Assembly: GCA_000697665.1 (NCBI GenBank)
Contig: KL197793.1
Span: forward strand, 41,582-64,752
Reading direction: 5' to 3'
DNA: 23,171 bases
From: Jaapia argillacea MUCL 33604
Taxonomy: Eukaryota > Basidiomycota > Agaricomycetes > Jaapiales > Jaapiaceae
Positions 3,206-23,054 of this stretch are shown piece by piece (position 1 is the stretch's first letter; every line of letters starts with the position of its first letter). The notes beneath the pieces are model-generated. The model did no database searches, was not told the origin of the DNA, and saw nothing but the letters and a program-made list of their open reading frames with translations. The position numbers were made by a program, and so were the translations under genes.

Positions 3206-6200
3206 GTGAACAAAGGTTCACTTAAAGCTACAACAGGAGTTGATCCTCCCATTCAGGAAGCAAGTAGTTGGTCTAGTTCTTCTACACAGGTAGGGGAGAG
3301 ACCGCTTGAACGACCGCCGACCACCAGGGAAGAATCAGAAGTCTGGGGTCCTAAAACTTCTGAGATACTGGATACCTCGGTCTTCCCTTCCTCGAACATG
3401 GAAGGGATATTAGATGTGGGAGACTTACTGGAACATCTCCGAGAGAAGGCTTGGGACATGCTGTGACATCGTTCTGGAGCATTTGGCTGCGATGGATGTT
3501 TGGGTCACTATCCTGCCCGAGTTCACATCCGTACAGTCAACGGTCTCAACCCTATTGCCGTACCAATGTACGGAACTTCTCCTGCCAAACGCCTAGTCAT
3601 TGAGGAGCAACTGGCCAAATGGTTCAAGCAAGGTGTCATAGAGCCCTCTAAGAGCCCTTGGAGCGCTCCGGTTGTCATCGCCTACCATAATGGAAAACCA
3701 CGCTTTTGCATCGACTATAGGCAACTGAATGCTGCTACAATAGTGGACGAATTCCCCATTCCACGACAATCCGAGATACTTGCCTCCCTATCTGGGGCTC
3801 AGGTCCTCTCCTCCCTCGATGCTCTATCAGGGTTCACTCAAATCGAAATTGACCCATCAGACGTTGAGAAAATGGCTTTTCAGACACACAAGGGTCTATT
3901 CCAATTCTTAAGAATGCCCTTTGGGCTACGAAATGGACCATCGATCTTCCAGCGAATCATGCAGTCAGTTCTAGTGCCGTATCTATGGCTATTTTGCCTC
4001 GTATATATTGATGATATCGTGGTATACTCTAAATCTCATGAAGAACACATCGAGCACCTGGACAAGGTGCTTGAGGCCATCAAATTGGCGGGCCTGACTC
4101 TGTCTCCAGACAAATGTCACCTGTTCTACTCTTCAATCCTCCTCCTAGGGCACCACGTATCCTGTTTGGGTCTGTCTTCGCACCAGGAGAAAGTACGAGC
4201 AATCGTGGAAATGAAGCGACCTATGAAGGTGTCCAAGCTACAGACGTTCCTGGGCATGGTGGTATACTTTTCGTCATTTATACCCTACTACACTAGTGTA
4301 GCAGCTCCACTGTTTCAGCTACTAAGGAAAGGAGCAAGATGGAACTGGGGGGCAGATCAGGAACATGTGTTTCAACAGGCAAAGAAGGCCCTACAGCTAG
4401 CCCTGGTCTTAGGACATCCTATACAGGGCTTGCCTTACAGGGTGTACTCCGATGCCTCAGACAAAGCTCACAGCTGTGCGCTACAGCAGGGACAACCCAT
4501 ATGAGTTGCAGACCTGAAGGGCACCAGGATCTACAAGCAATTGGAAAAAGCCTTCCTGGCAAAAGAGCCCGTACCAACCCTAGTACCAGGATTGTCCCAG
4601 AAGATCCAAGACGCCCCTCTCCCAGGAGAATGGGGGGCCACACTGGATGACACCACTGTCCACGTGGAAAGGGTCATAGCATACTGGTCCCACTCTTTCA
4701 AGGATGCAAAGAAACAATACTCAGTGACAGAACGAGAAGCCCTAGCTGTGAAGGAAGGACTAGTAAAATTTCAACCCTTCATCAAAGGGGAAAAGATCAT
4801 TCTAGTCACTGATCATGCAGCTCTCCAGTGGGCACGAACTTATGAGAATGCGAACCACCGCCTCACATCATGGGGAGCAGTATTCTCAGCATACCTACCA
4901 GACTTAGAAATTGTTCACCGAGCAGGTCGAGTCCACTCAAACATAGACCCACTGAGCAGCATCCTGCGTGAGCCTCCTCCTCACCAATCCCCAAGAGCAG
5001 GTGATAGGCCATCCCTAACCCCAGATAACTCCCTTGCAGAGGAATCAGAACAAGCCCAGGAGAGGCAACCAGTGAATAAGGTATCATTCTCGGTGTCGAG
5101 CATCGCGGATCTACTCGAAGCAAAAACCAATGCAATGGCTTTCACCAGAAGTAAAGGCTCTGTACCAGAGGAAGATGTTCCTAACATTCCACTCCAGTTG
5201 AACACACCGGCCACAAAAACTCATAAGAAGCCTCGGGGCCCAAGGCAAGCAGGAGCCCAGAAGTCCCGCCGACAACAAGCTGGCCTGCATAGTATGGTCC
5301 CTCCCCTCCCTGGTACAACCACACTACCACCCAGCAGTGATCCTTACAAGACACAACAAGCATGGGAAGTGGATCATCCCCCTCCTATGCTGCATGTCAC
5401 TCTGAATTAAGATGTGTTGAAGGAATTTGTGGAAGCGTATCACCATGACCCGGCTTTCCAATCCAAATGGAATGAGGAGGTCTCTGAGCACAATCAGTGG
5501 TACCCAGGTTGTAGATTCTACAAGGATCAGCAAGGCCTACTCTTCTTTCGAGATGCAGACTTCATCCCACGGTTGTGTGTCCCGAGAGGATTGCGTAACT
5601 CACTACTCCGACAAGCACATGAATCCCCATACAAAACAGCACACACAGGACTGGAGAAGCTCTGGATGGTGTTGAGTGGCAGGTTCTTCTGGCCCAACAT
5701 GAAGAAGGATATTGAGCTCCATTGTCACACCTGCGACATTTGCCAGAAAATCAAGCCGTCCAACTTCAATCACTATGGCTGCCTGATCCCCACTATGATA
5801 CCCACTCGGCCCTATGAATTGATATCTATGGATCTGATTATGGGTCTCCCATGGTCAGATGGATTCAATGCAATCTGGGTGGTAGTGGATAGGCTCACGA
5901 AGCATGTACAATTCGTCCCAACCACTACAGGCCTCACGGCAGAAGGTTTTGCAGCATTGTTCATCAAGCACGTTGCTTGCCACTATGGTCTTCCGGACTA
6001 CATCATTACGGATAGAGACCCCCGATGGACCTCTGATTTTTGGAAAGCCATATCAACAGCGATGAAGCTACGAATGTCTCTCTCCTCTTCTCACCACCCA
6101 CAGTACGATGGTCAGACAGAGATTGTCAACAAGGCCCTGGAAATCATGCTTCGGGCATATGTGGCAACGGATAAAACTTCCTGGGCAAGATGGCTTCACG

Positions 6201-6331
6201 TCCTGGAGCATGCCTATAACTCTACTCCTTCATCTACCACGGGTGAAATACCATATTTTCTCCTCTACGGATTCCTCCCTAAAGGCCCACTGGACTTCCT
6301 AGCATACCTCCACACCAGCCACAATCTCTGA
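3206..6331 (+). pseudogene. Reverse transcriptase, RNase H and integrase of retrotransposon A (broken by stops)
   Basis: The frame continues directly from the gag-protease part. The RT core has FCIDYRQLNA, FGLRNGPSIFQ and the catalytic YIDD (4004-4015). RNase H follows with VYSDASDKA, TEREALAV and LVTDHAALQW, giving its acidic residues. The integrase has an N-terminal HHCC zinc-binding region (CHTCDICQK near 5730) and a catalytic core with Asp at 5831 (SMDLIMG), Asp at 6011 (ITDRDPRW) and Glu at 6119 (DGQTEIVNK). Thirty-five residues separate the second Asp from the Glu, so it is DD35E. Stops are TGA 3464, TGA 4502 and TAA 5408 (C-to-T from CGA or CAA fits all three), and the frame ends at TGA 6329. 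Homologous-looking text continues in the +1 frame, so a small indel near 6300-6329 is likely. Confidence 0.9.
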
Positions 6332-11419: not shown

Positions 11420-12327
11420 CCCTGTGTCTCAGAATATGCCCACTAATCGCAGTCAACATTCCAGGTCTCTGTACCATCATATTTCCCCACCAAAGCGAGC
11501 AGGTCATACCATCCATACCAGCAATTGGGATCTCTGTGGAGGGGAGTTTCCCTGTTTGCAATCACCAAACACCCCGTATATACTGAAACCCACAATTCAG
11601 CGGCTTGTTCATGTCCCCACTGGTCACGTATGGCTTGTTGAGCTCGGAGTCCATAGTAATACAGTGAGGGATGGATGATGTGGAGAATATCATTCATGAT
11701 TGCGGTGGTTTCCAACGTCTCCCGAAACCACTTTGATATCCCACCCAGTCAGCCCCGATCATGCATCACGGTGGAGACATGGAGCTTGCTGTCTGGAGTC
11801 TGCGTGGCTTGATTTGCATATGATGAACTGCTTGGAATGGACAACTTACCAAATGACCCAGGGCAAACCAAGCAGGACTCAGGTTCACGACACCTGGCCA
11901 GATGTGAGGGCATACGGATAAGGGCTTGAAGTACTCCTTCTGTTGTCTCCAACTGCAATGGGAGGCACTCCTCGAACTGATCAAACTCGATCCTAGCTGA
12001 TGATTGAGATGGCAAGTTGAAAGGAACAAGTCATACTTGTGGCAACATCGTTAGGACAATATTGAATACTGGTCACGAGAATACAAAACTCACCTGTCGC
12101 TCTGCTCAGAGCAGGGATTGCAGGTGCCAAAATAAGATCAGACCATTCTGGTCCACAACGATACAGGGCGTGGTCTGGATGGGGAGATCTCTGGTGAACA
12201 GAGGTTTGAAGAGTATGTCCAAGTTTGCCTCTTTCTGCTCATTCATCCCATTATTCTTGACACTGACGTCACATGAGTATTCATGGGCACTCCGAGGAAC
12301 CCAGACTGCTATTGTGTGAGAGCACAC
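11420..12327 (-). pseudogene. TET/JBP-like 2-oxoglutarate/Fe(II) dioxygenase, truncated by element B
   Basis: Read on the minus strand. Exon A (about 12327-12094) has RDLPIQTTPCIVVDQNG; exon B (11996-11850) has VNLSPAWFALGHL; exon C (11799-11420) has NRETPLHRDPNCWYGWYDLL and VGKYDG. Introns 12093-11997 (GTGAGT..CAG) and 11849-11800 (GTAAGT..CAG, 50 nt) join them in phase 0. The HRD triplet (codons 11538-11530) would supply two of the three Fe(II) ligands. This pattern matches my memory of the basidiomycete TET/JBP family, which oxidises 5-methylcytosine and is often linked to Kyakuja-Dileera-Zisupton transposons. Stops are TGA 12108, TGA 11751 and TAG 11445. The gene ends abruptly at the LTR of element B, so the last Fe-binding His and the 2-oxoglutarate-binding Arg are absent. 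Exon A's 5' end and any further N-terminal exons are unresolved. Confidence 0.65.
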
Positions 12328-12853: not shown

Positions 12854-12871
12854 AAGAATCCAGGACTGTCC

Positions 12872-12951
12872 CATCAGGGAAATCCCCCCCCACCAATTAT
12901 CTCAAAATATCTCTAATTAGTAGGAAAATGGTGTAAATCCGTGAAAATCAC
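12872..12951 (+). repeat. Left member of a degenerate inverted repeat pair
   Basis: Blocks in order: CATCAGG (12872-12878), GGGAAATCCCCC (from 12877), CACCAATT (12891-12898), and a 28-bp stretch at 12924-12951 that starts GAAAATGGTG and ends in GTGAAAATCAC. About 20 of these 28 bases match the reverse complement of 19313-19340. The region is AT-rich and repeats GTGAAAATC again further in (near 13045), so part of the likeness could be low complexity. Confidence 0.45.
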
Positions 12952-13234
12952 TATTTCTGCTAATCCAGCCACATTCGCTTTGCCAGAACAAGGGTCATGA
13001 AAATCAAAGCAAATTTTCGATGAATTTTCAAGCTCTGGTGAAAATCCTCAGCCATTCAGCATCAAATTTGTCCCCAATACGACGAGATCATCTTCGTGTT
13101 TTCAGTCAAGGGCAATCGGTTGACATCACATTAAGGAGGTGTATTATTCCGAACTCTAACTAAACGAATGACATGGGTATCATGGACACCAGCGTGTGTG
13201 CTGCAAACCACTGTAATCTCGGCGCCTCTCGCCT
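12952..13234. other. Non-coding stretch downstream of the DUF6532 gene
   Basis: No coding text found on either strand. AT-rich, with short GAAAATC and AAATTTTC repeats in its left half. It probably contains the 3' untranslated region of the DUF6532 gene. Confidence 0.4.
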
Positions 13235-15872
13235 CTAGTCGTCGACTTCCATATCACTGAGATCGACCTTCACAACTTGGTCCTTGACAGAATGGTCGGC
13301 ATTGGAGCCACTTGGAGGGAATCATCAGGGCAAGAGTTGGTGAGAGGAAATCAAGCACTCACGAAGCTAGAACATACACCTTCCTCAAGAGTTTATGATA
13401 TTTTGTCGGATTTTTCTCGATCTTCGCCAAGGACGCAATATGCTTTCGATAGGTGCCGTAATAGACTGAGGCTGAAAAATCTGTACGCTTATATTCCCCC
13501 GTGCTCCAGTCGGTAAGTGCAGCATAAACCTGTAGAAGGATTAGTGAGAGAACACACAGATGACTTCGGGACACGTACCGCTGTTGCAGCAAGGGCAAGC
13601 ATTTCGGGAGAGACCATCGGCTCACCATCACGGGTCAGAGGAAATTTGGCGTGGCGGGTGGCTGCGTATGACGGGGACCCATCAAAGAATGCAGTTCGAA
13701 GAACGGACCCAAGGATGGGAGCTTGATATCCCTTCTTTGGGTTAAATTCGGAAGTCTAGGTCGAAGGAACCACGTTAATGATGCAGCAATGATCACGGAA
13801 AACAAGACAGACAACAGGATCACGGGGACAGATATAAAGGTCTCCCGACAGCAAATCCGTTATATATTTCGACAGGCCAGCTCTTGGAGTGAGATTGAAG
13901 CAGTGAGCCAAAGAAGACGCGGCAGCTGTTTTGGTCTTTCCGCGGAAGGTGCCAATCCGAGCTTCGGGCTAATTCGAGACGAAGAAATTCAATACAACTC
14001 CGTGGGATATAATGCACACTTACGATCTGTGCCATATCACTCAAGTATTCACCATCAGATCGCAGCCGTCGTCGTATCGCAGCGCGGTCACGGTCATCTT
14101 TCTCGCCAACGGCAGCGGCAAGAAGGGCATCTCGAACGATTGCGGTTTGACTATTGACCTCCGGAAAGGAATCGACGAAGCACACTGCGTCCTTGAGCTC
14201 CTCAATTGCGACGAGCAGGATAGCCCTCACGAGAGTACCCTGGGCCTTGAGAGATATCTTGCCTGAATCGGGGAAGACCATCCATGTTGATTCTGGCCAA
14301 GCTGGAGCGATGCTGGTCGGTTCTTCTACCTTGACGTGACCGTGAGAGGTTCTCTCAACTTTGACGGCGACTTGGCTTGGGCGAGGCTGGAATGAAGATC
14401 TGGTGTACTCAAGCTTCACCTTGGTGTTGCTGACACCAGCGCGTTGCTTCATGTCAATCTTTTGCGAAACAGTTCATTTGAGCATGAGGCGACGGGTTTT
14501 GACTAGGAGGGCATACCTGTGCTGGGACATTTCTGCCTGTGTCCCATTCTTTCTTTGGGTTGTTCTTACTTGCATGTCTTGCAGATAAAGTAGTCCTACA
14601 TATTTCAGAACGGAACGCAAAGGCAGCGTGTGGGTAAGGAGACTCACGGATCATCCAAAATCTCCACGTCAGATCCGTTATTCAAGGGTGAATAGCGGCG
14701 CAACTGGCCAGGTTCAGGAGAGGAGTCCTCGTCACTCAGAGGAGGAGGCTCAGCAAGGCCGAAGGAGCGCCCATGATGAGGAGGTTGTCGTGGCAGTCTG
14801 GTTTCAGTTTCCTCGTCACTGAATGTCACATCTTGATCGATTAGGTTCTTGTACCCGGCGCGACGCGTTTCGTTCTTCGAGGTCTTCACATCCTTAGGCT
14901 TCTGGTCACCTGGAAACGATGGTCGCTGGGATAAAATCATCCTCACTCAATCAATATCCTCTTGCCGATCTCAACAAAATCTACCTCATATGCCATCTTC
15001 TCGGCCAGCTTCAAAGGCTTTTTCTCGAGTTGCTTCAATTCCTCGTTGTCAGATTCTGGCTGTTCCACATCTGACTCTTCGTTGTTGGATTTCTCCTCAC
15101 TCAAGGGCAAAAGCTCATCCTCATCCTCATCCTCAACTGGCCTCGATGTCTTGACTATCGGGTTTGCGCGACCCGTGTTCCCACTCTTATCGGCTGTGAA
15201 TGGATGGGTTGGGATGAGCATTCCCGATGTGAAAGACACCCAGTCAAGTTGCTTGCCTTTCAGCTTGGGCTTACTCTTCTCATTGGTCACCATCTCAGCA
15301 TCTTCATCGTCGGATACATCAAAGTTCGCCGCTGCATGCTCCTTGGACAATGAAGCGCCGCGCTGCATCTTGCCATTTGGATGAATTGGGTGCTGTGCTG
15401 CAATCCATTTCAGGTTAGCAGTATCCTCCGTGGGAAGGGTAAGTTGGTCATACCTTTGGTCTTCTTCGCCTTCGACTGTGTCTGTTCATTTTGAACAGCA
15501 GAAGCTGCCCGTTTTCGAGTTGGCTTCACAAGTAGTCGAGCTGGAAGATTATACACGTTTATTCTGATTCAAGGCTAGGGATGAGAGGAGTATATCTCAC
15601 AAATGTTTGCTGCGGCAGTGGCTTTGGCCTGACGACTGGGCCGACGACCTCCGTTTTGATCTTCAGCGCCAGCTACTGGATCGGTCTTAGTCTTGAGCTC
15701 AAATATATTTGGAGATGCTAAACTTACCTTCATCTGCTTCCGGTCCATTCGTATGGGACTGAATTGCCTGTTCTGCCCTCTGTTGCTTCGCTGTGGCCCT
15801 CGTCGGTGCAGAACGCCCAGAATGGGAACTTTGAGCCAAGTTTGCTGTGTTAGTATTGGTTCCCTTTCCCAT
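13235..15872 (-). CDS. DUF6532 domain protein, 694 aa, 11 exons, apparently intact
   Basis: Start ATG 15872-15870, stop TAG 13237-13235. Exons (minus strand): 15872-15728, 15675-15601, 15540-15454, 15397-14985, 14925-14648, 14595-14517, 14458-14024, 13968-13816, 13755-13579, 13529-13363, 13310-13235. The total of 2085 nt stays in frame. Introns are 49-60 nt with GT..AG ends; only intron 8 has a weak donor (GTTGTC). The N-terminal 400 residues are low complexity and charged, with a DEDEDELLPL-type acidic run and LKLAEKMAYE. The C-terminal domain matches DUF6532 as I know it: AIVRDALLAAA, RLRSDGEYLSDMAQI, PEARIGTFRGKTKTAA, PILGSVLRTAFFDG, PEMLALAATAVYAAL and YRKHIASL. The biochemical role is unknown; the family is expanded in Agaricomycetes. 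Unlike all neighbouring genes it has no premature stop. Confidence 0.8.
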
Positions 15873-16016
15873 GGTGGTTGTTTGTATTCAGAGGAAGTGG
15901 CGTGGATTTGAGTCTTCTGTCACCTGTGTGACTTTCCCACATGACAATAAGGAGTGCGTAAGCAAGATACTTCGTGGTTGTGAGTCTCAGAGTGGTGTGC
16001 AATCTACTTGAATTCT
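15873..16016. promoter_or_regulatory. 144-bp bidirectional intergenic region
   Basis: Separates the start codons of the divergent DUF6532 and transposase genes, so it must hold both 5' untranslated regions and at least one promoter. No clear TATA box is visible. It contains TTTCCCACATG (about 15936-15946), whose core TTTCCCACAT recurs inverted near 19364-19373 downstream of the transposase. Promoter function is inferred from position only. Confidence 0.45.
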
Positions 16017-19000
16017 ATGTCCTTCCTCCTGACCTGCAATGGATGTGGTGGCCGATACAATCAAAGGGGATGGACTCGCCATTTCCGAACATCCACAAAC
16101 CCTGCCTGCGCTGCTCTGCGAAAACAGCATACATCAGCCCTCAATGAACCCACAGGCTCCAACTCAGGCTCTGATTCACTCCATGAGGACATGCCAGCTG
16201 GTCCATCTTCACCACCACCTTTCGACAGTGACTACTTTGGTGGTTCTTACACTTGGGAGGATCTTGGGTGGCAGGGAGGAGACGATTATGAAGAGGATGA
16301 GGGTGGACAAGGAGAGCGACAGATGGGGCAGCATGGGGATGATAGTGATTCTGATGATTCTGATGACGAGGGAAATATTGACCGTGGCTTTGACCGAGAG
16401 TGGGAGCCTGATCACTCTGCTGATCGGCAACCATCACCTATGCAGCAATCACCAAGCCCGAGTCCATGAGAGCCTCCCCCGGATCTACCGGGTGTATCGG
16501 TCTCAAGTCAGAATCAAAAAGAGCAGGTCGAAGAGAGCCTCTCCCGAGCACCAACCTTTGTTGAGCACTTCAAGGGGGATATGGCTGGGAGGCCGATTGA
16601 TCGAGACGAAGATACATCAGATCTGGTGTATGATGGAGGATACATGGGGATGAAGAAGGCCCTGGATTCAACTGATCCCAGTAACCCTTGGGCGCCATTC
16701 ACTTCCAAGATAGACTGGGAGTTTGCGCAGTGGGCAAAACTGTGAGGGCCTGGATCGACGTCGGTGTCTGAGCTACTGAGCATTGATGGAGTCAGTACAT
16801 CCATGTGTTCCGTTCAGCTCTCAGCCCTCACTAACCCACTCTGTAGATTCCTGAGAAGTTGGGGTTGTCTTTCAAAAATTCGAGAGAGCTCAACAAGATT
16901 GTCGACAAGCATCTCCCCGGCCGCCCTCGGTTCAAGCACGAACAGATTGTTATTGGTGGGGAAGCATTTGACATATACTTCCGCGATATCCTTGAATGCA
17001 TTCGGGCCCTATATGGAGATCCCGAATTTGCGCCATACCTTGTATTTAAACCGGAACGCCATTATGCAGACGAGGATTGCACGATTCGACTATATCACGA
17101 CATGCACACTGGGAAGTGGTGGTGGGCAACCCAGGTGAGCCGAATCGCCACCGTAACACACTCAGTGGCGAACTCATGACTTTCGCTGGGTGTAGAAAGT
17201 TCTGGAAGCGACACAGCCAGGGGCAACAATCATTCCTGTTGTCATCTCCTCGGACAAGACCCAGCTCACACTCTTCAGGAACAGGACAGCATACCCAGTG
17301 TATCTCACTATCGGGAATCTTCCTAAGGATATTCGCCGGAAACCGACCCGCTGAGGTCAGATACTCCTCGCCTACCTTCCCACAACAAAACTCGACCACA
17401 TGAAGAATAAGGCTGCGCGATGTCGCGCTCTTGCAAATTTATTCCACGGCTGCATGAAGAGAATTCTCTCTCCATTGAAAGATGCTGGGACCTCAGGAGT
17501 TCATATGGCGAGCGGTGACGGAGCTGTCCGGCGATGCCATCCCATATTTGCCACATTCATTGGTGATTACCCCGAACAGCTGCTCGTCGCCTGCTGTAAG
17601 AATGGGGAGTGTCCGTCATGTGTCGCACCAAACCAAGAGCTTGGTGCAAACAAATCTTTCCCTTGGCGAGATCTTGATGCGATTCAGGCTGCTCTCACGC
17701 TAGCAGATGGTCCCGATACGGCAGCTTTCAACCGGGCTTGCGTTGATGCTGGCATCAAACCGATCTACCATCCATTCTGGGAAGATCTTCCCTACGTCAA
17801 TATTTACCGGTCAATCGCTGTGGATGTTTTGCATCAACTGTATCAAGGGATCGTCAAGCACCTTCTCAAATGGCTTGCTGAAGCCTTTGGTGCCGATGAG
17901 TTGGACGCTCGCTGTCGTCGTCTTCCCCCAAACCATAATATCAAAATATTTAGCAAAGGCATCACCTCCCTTTCCCGGGTATCAGGCAAAGAGCACCGTG
18001 ACATGTGCTGAATCCTGATGGGTTTGATTGTGGACCTATGCCTTCCCAACAATTTCTCCCCCGTCCGACTTATTCGCGCCGTTCGTGGTATTCTTGACTT
18101 CCTCTACCTCGCTCAGTACCCCGCCCACACGTCCGACACTCTCCAATCCCTTGAAGAATCCCTTGATGAGTTCCATGCGAACAAAGCCATATTCGTCGAC
18201 CTCGGAATTCGCTCGCATTTCAACTTCCCGAAGCTACATGCTTGCTGCCACTACATCGATTGCATCAAAATGTTTGGGACAACAGACAACTACAACACGG
18301 AGACTTCCGAGCGCCTCCATATCGACTTCACCAAGGATGCGTATCATGCATCGAATAGGAAGGATGAATACCTGCAGATGACTTTGTGGGTGGAACGAAA
18401 GGAGAAAGTCCTCAAGCACCGGCTCTTTGTTCAGTGGCGGTTAGGTGGTCACAACCCAGTGATCCGGCATGTAGGACCTATTCACCATCCTAGGATCAAA
18501 ATGACTCGACATCCCTCCGCTAAGTCTGTCCCGTTTGCCAGGCTTATTCGGGACTACGGCGCAATGGACGTCGAAACCGCCCTCTGCCGTTTCATCGCAA
18601 AGCATCGGGAGCCGACGCTTCACGTATCCAGTATTGCATCCAGGGCATCAGCTGTTATTCTCCCATTCCGTGCAGTCCCGGTGTACCACAAGATCAAATT
18701 CTGGCACGAAAATCCACAAGATCCCGCCGCTGACGACGTTTTTGACGTCGTTCACTGTCGACCTCAGCGTAATGACAAATATGGTCGTCTCATCCCCGGT
18801 CGGTTTGACATGGTGCTGGTAAAGGTTGCGAACTCGGTGCGGTTAGGAGTTGCAGGTAATTATTCGAAGTTTCCTTTGTTTTATTGACCAAGATCTCAAT
18901 GACATCCCCACAGGCTACCGGGTAGCTCAAGTCCGAGCCGTTTTCCGACTTCCCCCCAAAGTTAGTCAGGCAATGTTTCCCTCGCACATTACGCCGCCCG

Positions 19001-19269
19001 AACACCTCGCCTATGTGGAATGGTTCACACCTTTCAAGTCGACGCCGGAACCAAACCACCGTATGTACCAAATTTCTCGTTCCGTCAAAGATGGGAAACG
19101 GGTTTCGGCAGTTGTTGCTGTGGAGGATATCCAAAGCAGCGTGCATTTGTATCCTCTCTTCGGACCAGTTCTTTGTCGTGCATGGTCGAGCGATGATGTC
19201 CTGGAGGAGTGTACTCGATTCTATGTGAATTGCTTCAAGGATCCGTACACACACATCACTTTGTATTGA
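16017..19269 (+). pseudogene. Plavaka-type DNA transposase, four exons, four premature TGA codons
   Basis: Exons 16017-16790, 16847-17134, 17196-18855 and 18914-19269 (1026 codons with stop) are joined by 56-61 nt introns in matching phases. ATG 16017 is chosen because the open frame further up starts only at TTG. The N-terminus has a CX2C-type zinc-finger-like motif (CNGCGGRYNQRGWTRHF, later Cys31), then an acidic disordered linker. The core has WAPFTSKIDWEFAQWAKL, GLSFKNSRELNKIVDKHLPG, DPEFAPYLVFKPERHYAD, TIIPVVISSDKTQLT, HMASGDGAVRR, IGDYPEQLLV, VDVLHQLYQGIVKHLLKWL and DNYNTETSERLHIDF. These segments match the Plavaka family of basidiomycete DNA transposons as I remember it. SSDKTQ, GDYPE or DVLH, and TSERLH are the likeliest sources of the DDE acidic residues (inference). 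TGA codons at 16467, 16743, 17352 and 18009 each replace a position where Arg fits, so the copy is inactive unless read through. Confidence 0.85.
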
Positions 19270-19312
19270 GCTAGTTATCTATGCGTCTGTAATACCAGAA
19301 GCAAATTTCCCT

Positions 19313-19400
19313 CGCGTTTTCACCCATTTTCACGATTTTCTTCAATTTCTGCAAATTGGTGCATATGTGGGAAATTTACCGAAGGGAGTTTTTCCTGATG
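19313..19400 (-). repeat. Right member of the degenerate inverted repeat pair
   Basis: Read on the minus strand from 19400: CATCAGG (19400-19394), GGTAAATTTCCC (19380-19369), CACCAATT (19361-19354), GAAAATCGTGAAAATGGGTG and on (19340-19313). The order is the same as at 12872-12951. It lies 44 bp beyond the transposase stop codon. Confidence 0.45.
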
Positions 19401-20024
19401 CCAGAGGACAACTTTGATTTCAAGATTGAGAGCGAAGGAAAGCAGAAGAGAGGGACCAATAAGGGGAAGAAAACAGCAAGAAAAGGTGAAGCATCCATTC
19501 CTTTCAACAGATGAATTTGCTGAGATAGAGCAACTCTTCATTTCGAGAAAGAAAGAAGATGGGGGGAAAGAATCAATTAAGTAGCATGGGGAAGGGACAC
19601 ACATCCTGAGGCAAGGTTCGGGATCAGGATGATGCATCCATGTCCAATGGATCATCTGATGAGGAAGGTGTGTGCCCTCCTTTGAAACGGAAATGCAATT
19701 ATTCATGGGTAAGCCAGAAGTGAGACATACCGATGCATCCAACAAGGAGGACGGTCCTCAACATCAATCTCATCCCCAAGTCACAACCAGAATGGGGAAG
19801 GAGAAGGGCAAAGGTATGCTTATGCAATCGTATATAGAGAATCATTTCACCAATTATGAGGACCAGTGAATGGACCTGCCACAAGCCCAGTCTCCAGTGG
19901 AAGGCTTGACTCCAATGAGAATGTACCCGGCCCCTCAAATTGCCATCGCATCTTGAAAAAGCAGACCTCGGTCAGGAGTCGACACCCTGGGAAGTGAGCT
20001 GGTTCTCATGGCACTGGGAATGAC
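19401..20024 (+). other. Stretch with possible further 5' exons of the mini-exon gene
   Basis: No complete gene can be placed. Several short open stretches on + look protein-like, for example KHPFLSTDEFAEIEQLF (about 19485-19535) and SMSNGSSDEEGVCPPLKRK (about 19637-19696), each next to plausible GT or AG splice sites. They may be extra N-terminal exons of the gene starting at 20025. A 141-codon minus frame (19745-19320) also exists and I regard it as a shadow. Confidence 0.3.
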
Positions 20025-22197: not shown

Positions 22198-22760
22198 ATA
22201 CTTACCTTCGTCGACATCCATGTGGACTGGATTGATCACTTCAAGTGGGAGCAGGTGAGATTCTCCATATACATGTTCTCTCAATAGTTCCTTGACCATT
22301 TCACAGGGGCTGTGGGTGGCTGCTGCTGAGCGATTTCACAAGCTGAAATGGATTAAGCTGACAGTCCCTGCCATCCTCCTTTCTCTGCAGGTGGAGCTAG
22401 CTCATGCGAATCCCGACTTGCATCAGGTGTCTGCACAAGATGCACGAGTGTCAACGAGCCCCTGGACGAGCAAGCACACTTTGAAACCCATCCTGGATTC
22501 ATACAGGCGCAAAATTGGGGAGAATAGATGGTGGGAGCCCAGTAAGTGAATTTTATTGTTTCTAACTTTGTTTGTCATCTGACTCTACTTCCCAGATCAT
22601 GTTCATTCACCCCGTGTGGAAGCCTCCAACTCCGTTGAGAGCTCTGCTCCATCCAGTAAGTTCAGATTTCTGTCTCTGTGTCAATGTTTTGACTGCAACC
22701 CATTCAGCCATTTTTTCCAGTATTAATGGCCAGCGGACCATGCATATCGTCCATTGTTAA
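22198..22760 (+). CDS. 3' part of a hypothetical spliced gene, Trp-rich
   Basis: Exon segment up to 22254 (VDIHVDWIDHFKWEQ), exon 22307-22541 (GLWVAAAERFHKLKWIKL, VELAHANPDLHQVSA, SYRRKIGENRWWEP), exon 22596-22655 (HVHSPRVEASNSVESSAPS) and a last exon from 22708 to TAA 22758-22760. Introns 22255-22306, 22542-22595 and 22656-22707 are 52-54 nt, with GTGAGA or GTAAGT donors and CAG acceptors, and keep the frame. The 5' end is unresolved: no in-frame ATG lies in the first segment, and several AG acceptors exist at 22164-22195. This segment overlaps the possible upstream extension of the minus gene, so only one of the two extensions can be real. The last codons run into the first motif copies of the array at 22721. 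Function unknown. Confidence 0.45.
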
Positions 22761-23054
22761 TGCGCCAGCGGACTCGGCCGACCTAGGTCCGCGGCTTATT
22801 GTTAATGGCGCAGCGGACATGCCATTACTATTGCGTCAGCTGACCAGTAGCATCAGGTCGCTGAAGCATTAGTAATGGCACAGCCGACATTCCTATATAT
22901 CAGGCAGTGTCCGCTGTGCAGTGGTAATGTGTTGGCAGACATATCATTAGTAATGGCTCAGCGGACCTACTTCGAATAGATACCAGCGTAACCAATCCGC
23001 TGTAGGTTGATAATGTAGTGGCGGACCTTCCACTAGTAATGGCTCAGCCGACCT
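22721..23054. repeat. Cluster of about ten TAATGGC-CAGCGGAC motifs in both orientations
   Basis: Direct copies: 22721-22740, 22756-22774, 22801-22820, 22828-22845 (diverged), 22871-22891, 22949-22968, about 23011-23027 (diverged) and 23035-23054. Inverted copies: about 22856-22873, 22906-22930 and 22994-23015 (diverged). Consensus about AGTAATGGCNCAGCSGACC, with irregular spacing. Dense, short, both-orientation motifs are typical of subterminal regions of DNA transposons, where transposase binds. No matching cluster is present elsewhere in the window, so the element it ends, if any, extends beyond the right edge or its other end is unlike it. Confidence 0.75.

Follow-up and report, generated by a model that had tools for sequence, protein, structure and literature searches.

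The stretch analysed here (the window; 23,171 nucleotides, C85:41582-64752 of the 43.7-Mb genome of the wood-rotting fungus Jaapia argillacea MUCL 33604) contains at 12872-19400 a 6,529-bp Plavaka element with termini CATCAGG...CCTGATG, inside which two genes lie head to head, one for the transposase and one for a protein with the DUF6532 domain. A survey of this genome, the single one from which all counts given here are drawn, suggests that the DUF6532 gene, together with a diverged homologue found in a second clade of elements, is very probably a regular, co-inherited and selectively maintained second gene of Plavaka. The observations as a whole are best explained, with a probability that we put at about 0.6, by a two-gene Plavaka in which DUF6532 is a partner resembling TNPA of the En/Spm (CACTA) elements. 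DUF6532 has no known role, and a link to Plavaka would re-file such genes as transposon genes, clean up counts of gene families and provide a testable reason for the abundance of DUF6532 genes in mushrooms.

The ends of the window element were placed by end pairing, shuffles and word counts. The inverted repeats at 12872 and 19400, CATCAGGGAAATCCCC and, read inward from the right end, CATCAGGAAAAACTCC, are identical at 13/16 positions and gave the highest score among the end pairs tried. Local alignment of the 130-bp ends scored 28, a value matched by 1/500 dinucleotide shuffles, and when gaps were made cheap, which permits the ordered blocks of the initial annotation, the score rose to 37.9, whereas the best of the shuffles reached 36.3 (0/500). 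The left terminus, CATCAGGGAAA..., opens a subterminal region (12872-13091, plus strand) with repeated TGAAAA and ATTTTC words, and the right terminus, ...TTTTTCCTGATG, closes the corresponding region at 19181-19400 on the minus strand. Degenerate inverted repeats around the gene pair had been proposed in the initial annotation, which also called for a target-site duplication to be sought outside both ends; the repeats are borne out by these alignments, and a 2-bp duplication, CC, was found at 12870-12871 (TCC|CATCAGG) and 19401-19402 (CCTGATG|CCA). As described by Kojima (2025) in passages of PMC12730594, PlavakaB elements have CATCA..TGATG termini and duplications of 2-3 bp; the window element has such termini, a 2-bp duplication and the PF18759 domain, and on these features 12872-19400 is identified as a single Plavaka transposon of the CATCA..TGATG type.

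The DUF6532 gene of this element (P0001, JAAARDRAFT_201037; 13235-15872, minus strand) was spliced by hand into 11 exons that encode 694 aa with no stop. The product corresponds to the deposited JAAARDRAFT_201037, with a reported identity of 100% over the queried residues 400-694 and one-residue differences at two splice junctions in the alignment of the spliced model; it matches PF20149 at aa 442-651 with 139.6 bits (cut-off 24), and a portion of the domain was recovered at 13419-13971, minus strand, by the six-frame genome search (C85:55000-55552). The transposase gene lies on the plus strand at 16017-19269, beginning with an ATG at 16017 ahead of a CxxC...H motif, and matches PF18759 (Plavaka) at 16871-17876 with 213 bits (cut-off 26.3) and PF20722 (DUF6830) with 27.5 bits. 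The gene model and this start confirm the earlier claim of an intact DUF6532 gene head to head with Plavaka, with 144 bp (15873-16016), presumably a shared promoter, between them. Four in-frame TGA stops (16467, 16743, 17352 and 18009) interrupt the transposase; as read here, the window copy is thus decayed in its transposase yet intact in its DUF6532 gene, and could still make the partner protein after the transposase has been lost.

Pfam searches of the whole genome returned 133 exon hits for Plavaka, which were grouped by eye into 54 loci, and 26 exon hits for DUF6532, which fall into 16 loci. Of the DUF6532 loci, 9/16 have a Plavaka locus at a distance of 4 kb or less, eight of these nine being divergent, and 12/16 have one within 8 kb, where chance would place 1.1% and 2.0%, respectively; by comparison, Tet_JBP hits were found near Plavaka in 0/25 cases within 4 kb and 2/25 within 8 kb. 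When the evidence of termini is counted as well, 15/16 loci are linked either with a divergent Plavaka or with a CATCAGG terminus, 11 of them through a divergent transposase (eight within 4 kb; C22, C34 and C49 farther away) and four through the terminus alone (C64, C36, C24a and C3). The exception is C10, in which a deviant, long-branched Plavaka and a DUF6532 gene 3.9 kb away share one strand; this pair, at C10:41768-47247, possibly represents a third arrangement.

Both ends were sought in ten elements, and in five of these the pair of genes is framed by a CATCAG..CTGATG end pair with a matching 2-bp duplication: the window element (6,529 bp, CC), C63 (6,575 bp, CA), C20 (6,559 bp, TA), C22 (11,598 bp, TA) and C49 (23,098 bp, GC). 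The 130-bp end alignments of C63, C22 and C49 exceeded all 500 shuffles, that of the window was matched by 1/500 and that of C20 by 11/500. No convincing end pair was found in the other five of the ten (C8, C24b, C33, C6a and C6b), C6b having candidate ends with unequal flanks. In four paralogous pairs of copies (C22/C34, C20/C6a, C49/C64 and C3/C24a) homology starts, to within 2 bases, at the terminus and extends inward, with identities over the compared stretches of 94% and 92% for C22/C34 and of 97% over 969 bp for C3/C24a. The whole elements and the paralogue pairs bounded at the terminus support the link between DUF6532 and Plavaka, and the joint mobility of the two genes, that had been suggested from the window. 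The degeneracy of the inverted repeats in the window is the one feature that would suit a host DUF6532 gene lying by chance beside an unrelated transposase, a notion which is refuted in this genome, and to which we attach practically no probability, by the boundaries of the paralogues at the termini and by binomial tails of 2.7e-14 for the Pfam DUF6532 loci near Plavaka and of 1.5e-21 for the partner loci of the second clade described below, the loci used as queries being excluded.

A tree of 32 transposase domains separates into two clades with support of 100/100, and all 11 elements with a divergent DUF6532 detectable by Pfam fall in clade 1. Within clade 1, no DUF6532 was found in the 4.3 kb that could be read at C1c and at C27, both of which carry stops; the upstream sequence of C1b, C66 and C82 is mostly N, and C37 and C89 were unread on the partner side. 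The initial annotation had held that Plavaka copies ending inside the 144-bp gap, with no DUF6532 beside them, would speak against the link, and neither C1c nor C27, the two readable clade-1 copies without a detectable DUF6532, is such a copy.

In clade 2 the six-frame Pfam search found no DUF6532, and when the sequence upstream of five clade-2 transposases was searched with splicing allowed, weak hits were obtained in C16 (64) and C11 (56), on a scale on which other comparisons scored 40-53, positives 214-524 and the background of another run up to 60. A gene on the divergent strand is nevertheless present in 10 of the 11 clade-2 loci examined (C16, C60, C6c, C21, C1a, C11, C45, C15, C3 and C17a), C53 being the one in which none was found. 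A profile of seven of these genes aligned by hhalign with 11 clade-1 domains at a probability of 93 (E 3.3e-7, score 53.3), where 60 column shuffles reached at most 19.4; with rows omitted, scores ranged over 38.9-54.8 and probabilities over 69-94. A weaker match, with a probability of 19.5 and an E of 0.0012, was obtained against another profile (A2), built from public sequences whose long ends are unrelated. Three spliced members were scanned with PF20149 (cut-off 24), of which C1a passes with 28 bits, C16 falls below with 16 bits and C11 gave no hit. One phase-0 intron occupies, as judged by eye, the identical place in the domain in both clades, after ALxLTA| in 14/16 clade-1 models and after ALALVAVA| or a similar motif in clade 2, where five were placed by the aligner and those of C16, C3, C11 and C45 by reading GT..AG; two further phase-0 introns lie, again by eye, at similar but non-identical places, and one of the two is restricted to C21 and C1a. 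From profile and intron together, the divergent gene of clade 2 is recognised as a remote homologue of DUF6532.

The association of this homologue with Plavaka was also seen in a whole-genome search that used five clade-2 proteins as queries and was independent of the position of the transposase. It returned 20 loci, 17 of which lie within 4 kb of Plavaka, all 17 of them divergent and 2.0-3.3 kb apart; minus the five query loci, the figure is 12/15. The three with no Plavaka hit on their contig (C35:363305-363932, C43:265337-266169 and C59:137940-138125) may represent contig ends, decay or freed copies. On the partner side, the clade-2 elements terminate in TGATG just past the gene in 6/7 loci read, and copies of the same family are homologous up to that TGATG or at most 10 bases past it.

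The partner and the transposase have, by codon and identity comparisons, a common history and are both under purifying selection. By the method of Nei-Gojobori, the partner has a dN/dS of 0.05 between C20 and C6a and the transposase one of 0.07 (dS 0.89 and 1.02), and between C33 and C6b the corresponding values are 0.08 and 0.05. The identity matrices of the two proteins across 11 elements are correlated with a Mantel r of 0.80, a value that 0/10000 permutations equalled. In eight of the 11 pairs in which pN/pS was measured for both genes the partner is the faster, although the pairs have elements in common and, in the distant ones, synonymous sites are close to saturated: partner and transposase values are 0.37/0.15 for C20-C24b, 0.38/0.21 for C6a-C24b, 0.22/0.13 for C33-C6b, 0.69/0.24 for C85-C63 and 0.30-0.47/0.08-0.12 for four clade-2 pairs. 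The partner is not faster in C20-C6a (0.09/0.11), C22-C34 (0.35/0.40) and C11-C45 (0.30/0.33).

The DUF6532 gene of the window had been suggested to be cargo of the transposon, and here the idea needs to be divided, as the link and the mobility stand whilst the term "cargo" does not fit a partner that acts as a fixed component of its element. Plavaka may instead have taken up a host gene that plays no role in transposition. Such an event would have a parallel in the capture of TET/JBP genes by several transposon lineages, as reported in passages of PMC12730594; it would also suit the intact partner beside a broken transposase in the window, and the failure to find a partner at about half of the Plavaka loci. 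However, the gene occurs in both clades with a common intron position and in one orientation (a partner is nearest neighbour to 29 Plavaka loci and is divergent at 28, C10 being the exception), and its constraint and history match those of the transposase. Furthermore, with 15/16 Pfam loci and 17/20 clade-2-type loci tied to Plavaka, few copies can be host genes, and we consider passenger carriage highly improbable. Since the gene is present in both clades, almost always divergent, under purifying selection and inherited together with the transposase, DUF6532 looks like a core partner gene of the element rather than passenger cargo.

If the gene is a standing part of the element, the closest model for it is found in En/Spm, where TNPA recognises subterminal repeats and is required together with TNPD for transposition, and where relatives of TNPA share little sequence despite conserved transposases, as given in passages of PMC2613891. 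The two systems are alike in that their DDE transposases are conserved and belong to related groups, that a second, element-encoded protein mostly evolves faster and that the subterminal repeats are family-specific (PMC2613891), and the recognizable similarity of Plavaka transposases to EnSpm, noted in part of PMC12730594, makes a TNPA-like partner plausible. The window DUF6532 is, as a TNPA counterpart should be, a second protein encoded within the same element as the transposase. They differ in that TNPA arises by alternative splicing of one transcription unit, whereas Plavaka here has two separate head-to-head genes. A TNPA-like role would account for a conserved transposase that is accompanied by a partner and end repeats specific to the family, and whether DUF6532 is indeed the Plavaka counterpart of TNPA is, by analogy, about an even bet. 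On this model DUF6532 would be a nuclear protein whose helical domain binds short subterminal repeats of its own family, draws the element ends together for the transposase and regulates the element's own bidirectional promoter. With such a partner, Plavaka would gain a second functional component, and end recognition could be tested with one protein and one repeat array.

Short words are indeed repeated near the ends and differ between families. They were counted in the terminal 220 bp, at both ends in clade 1 and on the partner side in clade 2, in 12 sets with 200 shuffles each, and in five sets the counts exceeded all shuffles: C3 (TCAGGA, eight times), C15 (TCAGGA and CCTGAA, five times each), C6c (CCAGAG, five times), C20 (GCTACA, eight times) and the window, whose two ends together contain, over both strands, ATTTTC eight times and TGAAAA six times, with 0/200 shuffles reaching eight. 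The other sets are weaker, the number of the 200 shuffles as high being 2 for C16, 7 for C60, 1 for C21, 6 for C63, 17 for C22, 13 for C49 and 70 for C1a. Internal stretches of C3, C15, C6c, C16, C85 and C20 gave counts of 2-5, and one internal stretch of C63 gave 9.

Regulators are often transcribed from divergent promoters, and the fast evolution of the partner would suit self-recognition; both would agree with an element-encoded regulator of copy number or target choice, such as a repressor or an immunity protein. The repeats at the ends favour end binding instead, and we regard such a regulator as improbable. The strongest rival to a TNPA-like partner is an anti-silencing factor. VANDAL elements belong to a different superfamily (MULE). 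Their VANC protein, as covered in part of PMC5735166, resembles the DUF6532 partner in that the element encodes it as a second protein, whose probable targets are repeats specific to the family, and a VANC-like DUF6532 would recognise the repeats of its own element and lift repression with no part in the transposition reaction. The clade-1 elements C22, C36 and C64 also carry a TET/JBP-like dioxygenase, a seeming investment in counter-silencing; among the stretches fetched this gene was detected in those three alone, however, while the partner is widespread, and a widespread gene suits a partner in the reaction at least equally well. We therefore judge anti-silencing to be unlikely, though deserving of attention.

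The two-gene Plavaka with a TNPA-like partner should nonetheless be considered with caution, as a divergent partner was found at 28/54 Plavaka loci (11 of the Pfam kind and 17 of the clade-2 kind), and the 26 at which none was found weigh against it. Only three of these 26 were read there (C1c, C27 and C53); as to the rest, three are mostly N, C10 has its partner on the same strand and 19, including weak or short Plavaka hits, were unread on the partner side. A wider proposal, in which members of the DUF6532 superfamily serve all of the Plavaka superfamily as an obligate second protein and each autonomous Plavaka needs its own fast-evolving member for end recognition, is tentative and falls a little short of an even chance. 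If it is true, a large class of mushroom genes with unknown function belongs to transposons, and Plavaka works with two components in the manner of CACTA and has a partner family of its own.

No paper that links DUF6532 to Plavaka was found in the literature searched. The passages on Plavaka in PMC9674265, PMC8290104, PMC11244446, PMC11075540, PMC6396904 and PMC7473861 mention no DUF6532 partner, although that in PMC11244446 reports Amoebidium gene clusters flanked by a Plavaka transposase, and the single paper found to name DUF6532, a Ganoderma survey (PMC8955403), gives PF18759 and PF20149 side by side, in one sentence, among the extra domains of two of its Ganoderma species. The elements described here share with PlavakaB the Plavaka transposase, the CATCA..TGATG termini and, in the five resolved elements, the 2-bp duplications, and some J. 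argillacea relatives carry a TET/JBP-like gene, as do TET+ PlavakaB; they differ in that no DUF6532 or other second protein is named in the PlavakaB passages of PMC12730594, whereas a partner is present here at 28/54 loci and in both clades.

According to passages of the same paper, TET/JBP genes move between transposon lineages including KDZ, Plavaka and EnSpm (PMC12730594). They resemble DUF6532 in being accessory genes within fungal DNA transposons, but are scattered over many lineages, whereas DUF6532 here follows Plavaka, as far as the neighbours checked at 16 loci indicate. In C36 a Tet_JBP-like frame lies inside the DUF6532-bearing element (stretch L051, 222-608, minus strand; 29 bits, below the cut-off of 34.9), a homologue 47% identical to it was found in C22 (stretch L089, 5182-5550, plus strand; 13.3 bits) and C64 holds a 39-residue piece; in the remaining stretches fetched, tblastn detected no TET/JBP-like dioxygenase. 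With a transposase, DUF6532 and a TET/JBP-like frame, C22 is possibly a three-gene Plavaka element, as C36 may also be, which would be consistent with the TET+ PlavakaB described in part of PMC12730594. No Tet_JBP hit falls inside the window element, the sole hit in the window (11467-11727) lying outside 12872-19400, where a weak Tet_JBP dioxygenase fragment (11443-11748, minus strand; 26.8 bits, below cut-off) is present beyond the left end.

As for the DUF6532 protein, AlphaFold2 predicted for P0002 (the C20 copy; 18 sequences) a confident helical domain, with 188 residues at a pLDDT of at least 90, after a disordered N-terminus. The predicted structure had no confident match in PDB or BFVD, and a sequence search had no match in PDB. 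All 18 public homologues found carry PF20149 and come from basidiomycetes.

Some minor features were also observed. A 2,035-bp stretch at C36:320554-322588 (L090) has CATCAGGAAAA.CCC.AACTGAGA at both ends with CA on either flank, and is probably a non-autonomous element of Plavaka type. A dispersed repeat with 26 matches in the genome, found at C24:396500-396875 and C36:313398-314028, is interrupted by the C36 terminus. Within the window, positions 1-450 hold tandem units of about 87 bp with TCTGTACAGA palindromes, and similar repeats adjoin a Plavaka copy on C82; degenerate short repeats around GTAATGGC.CAGC.GAC lie at 22752-23054, and in a decayed retrotransposon on the plus strand at 3467-6331 the domains for reverse transcriptase, RNase H and integrase lie in different frames.

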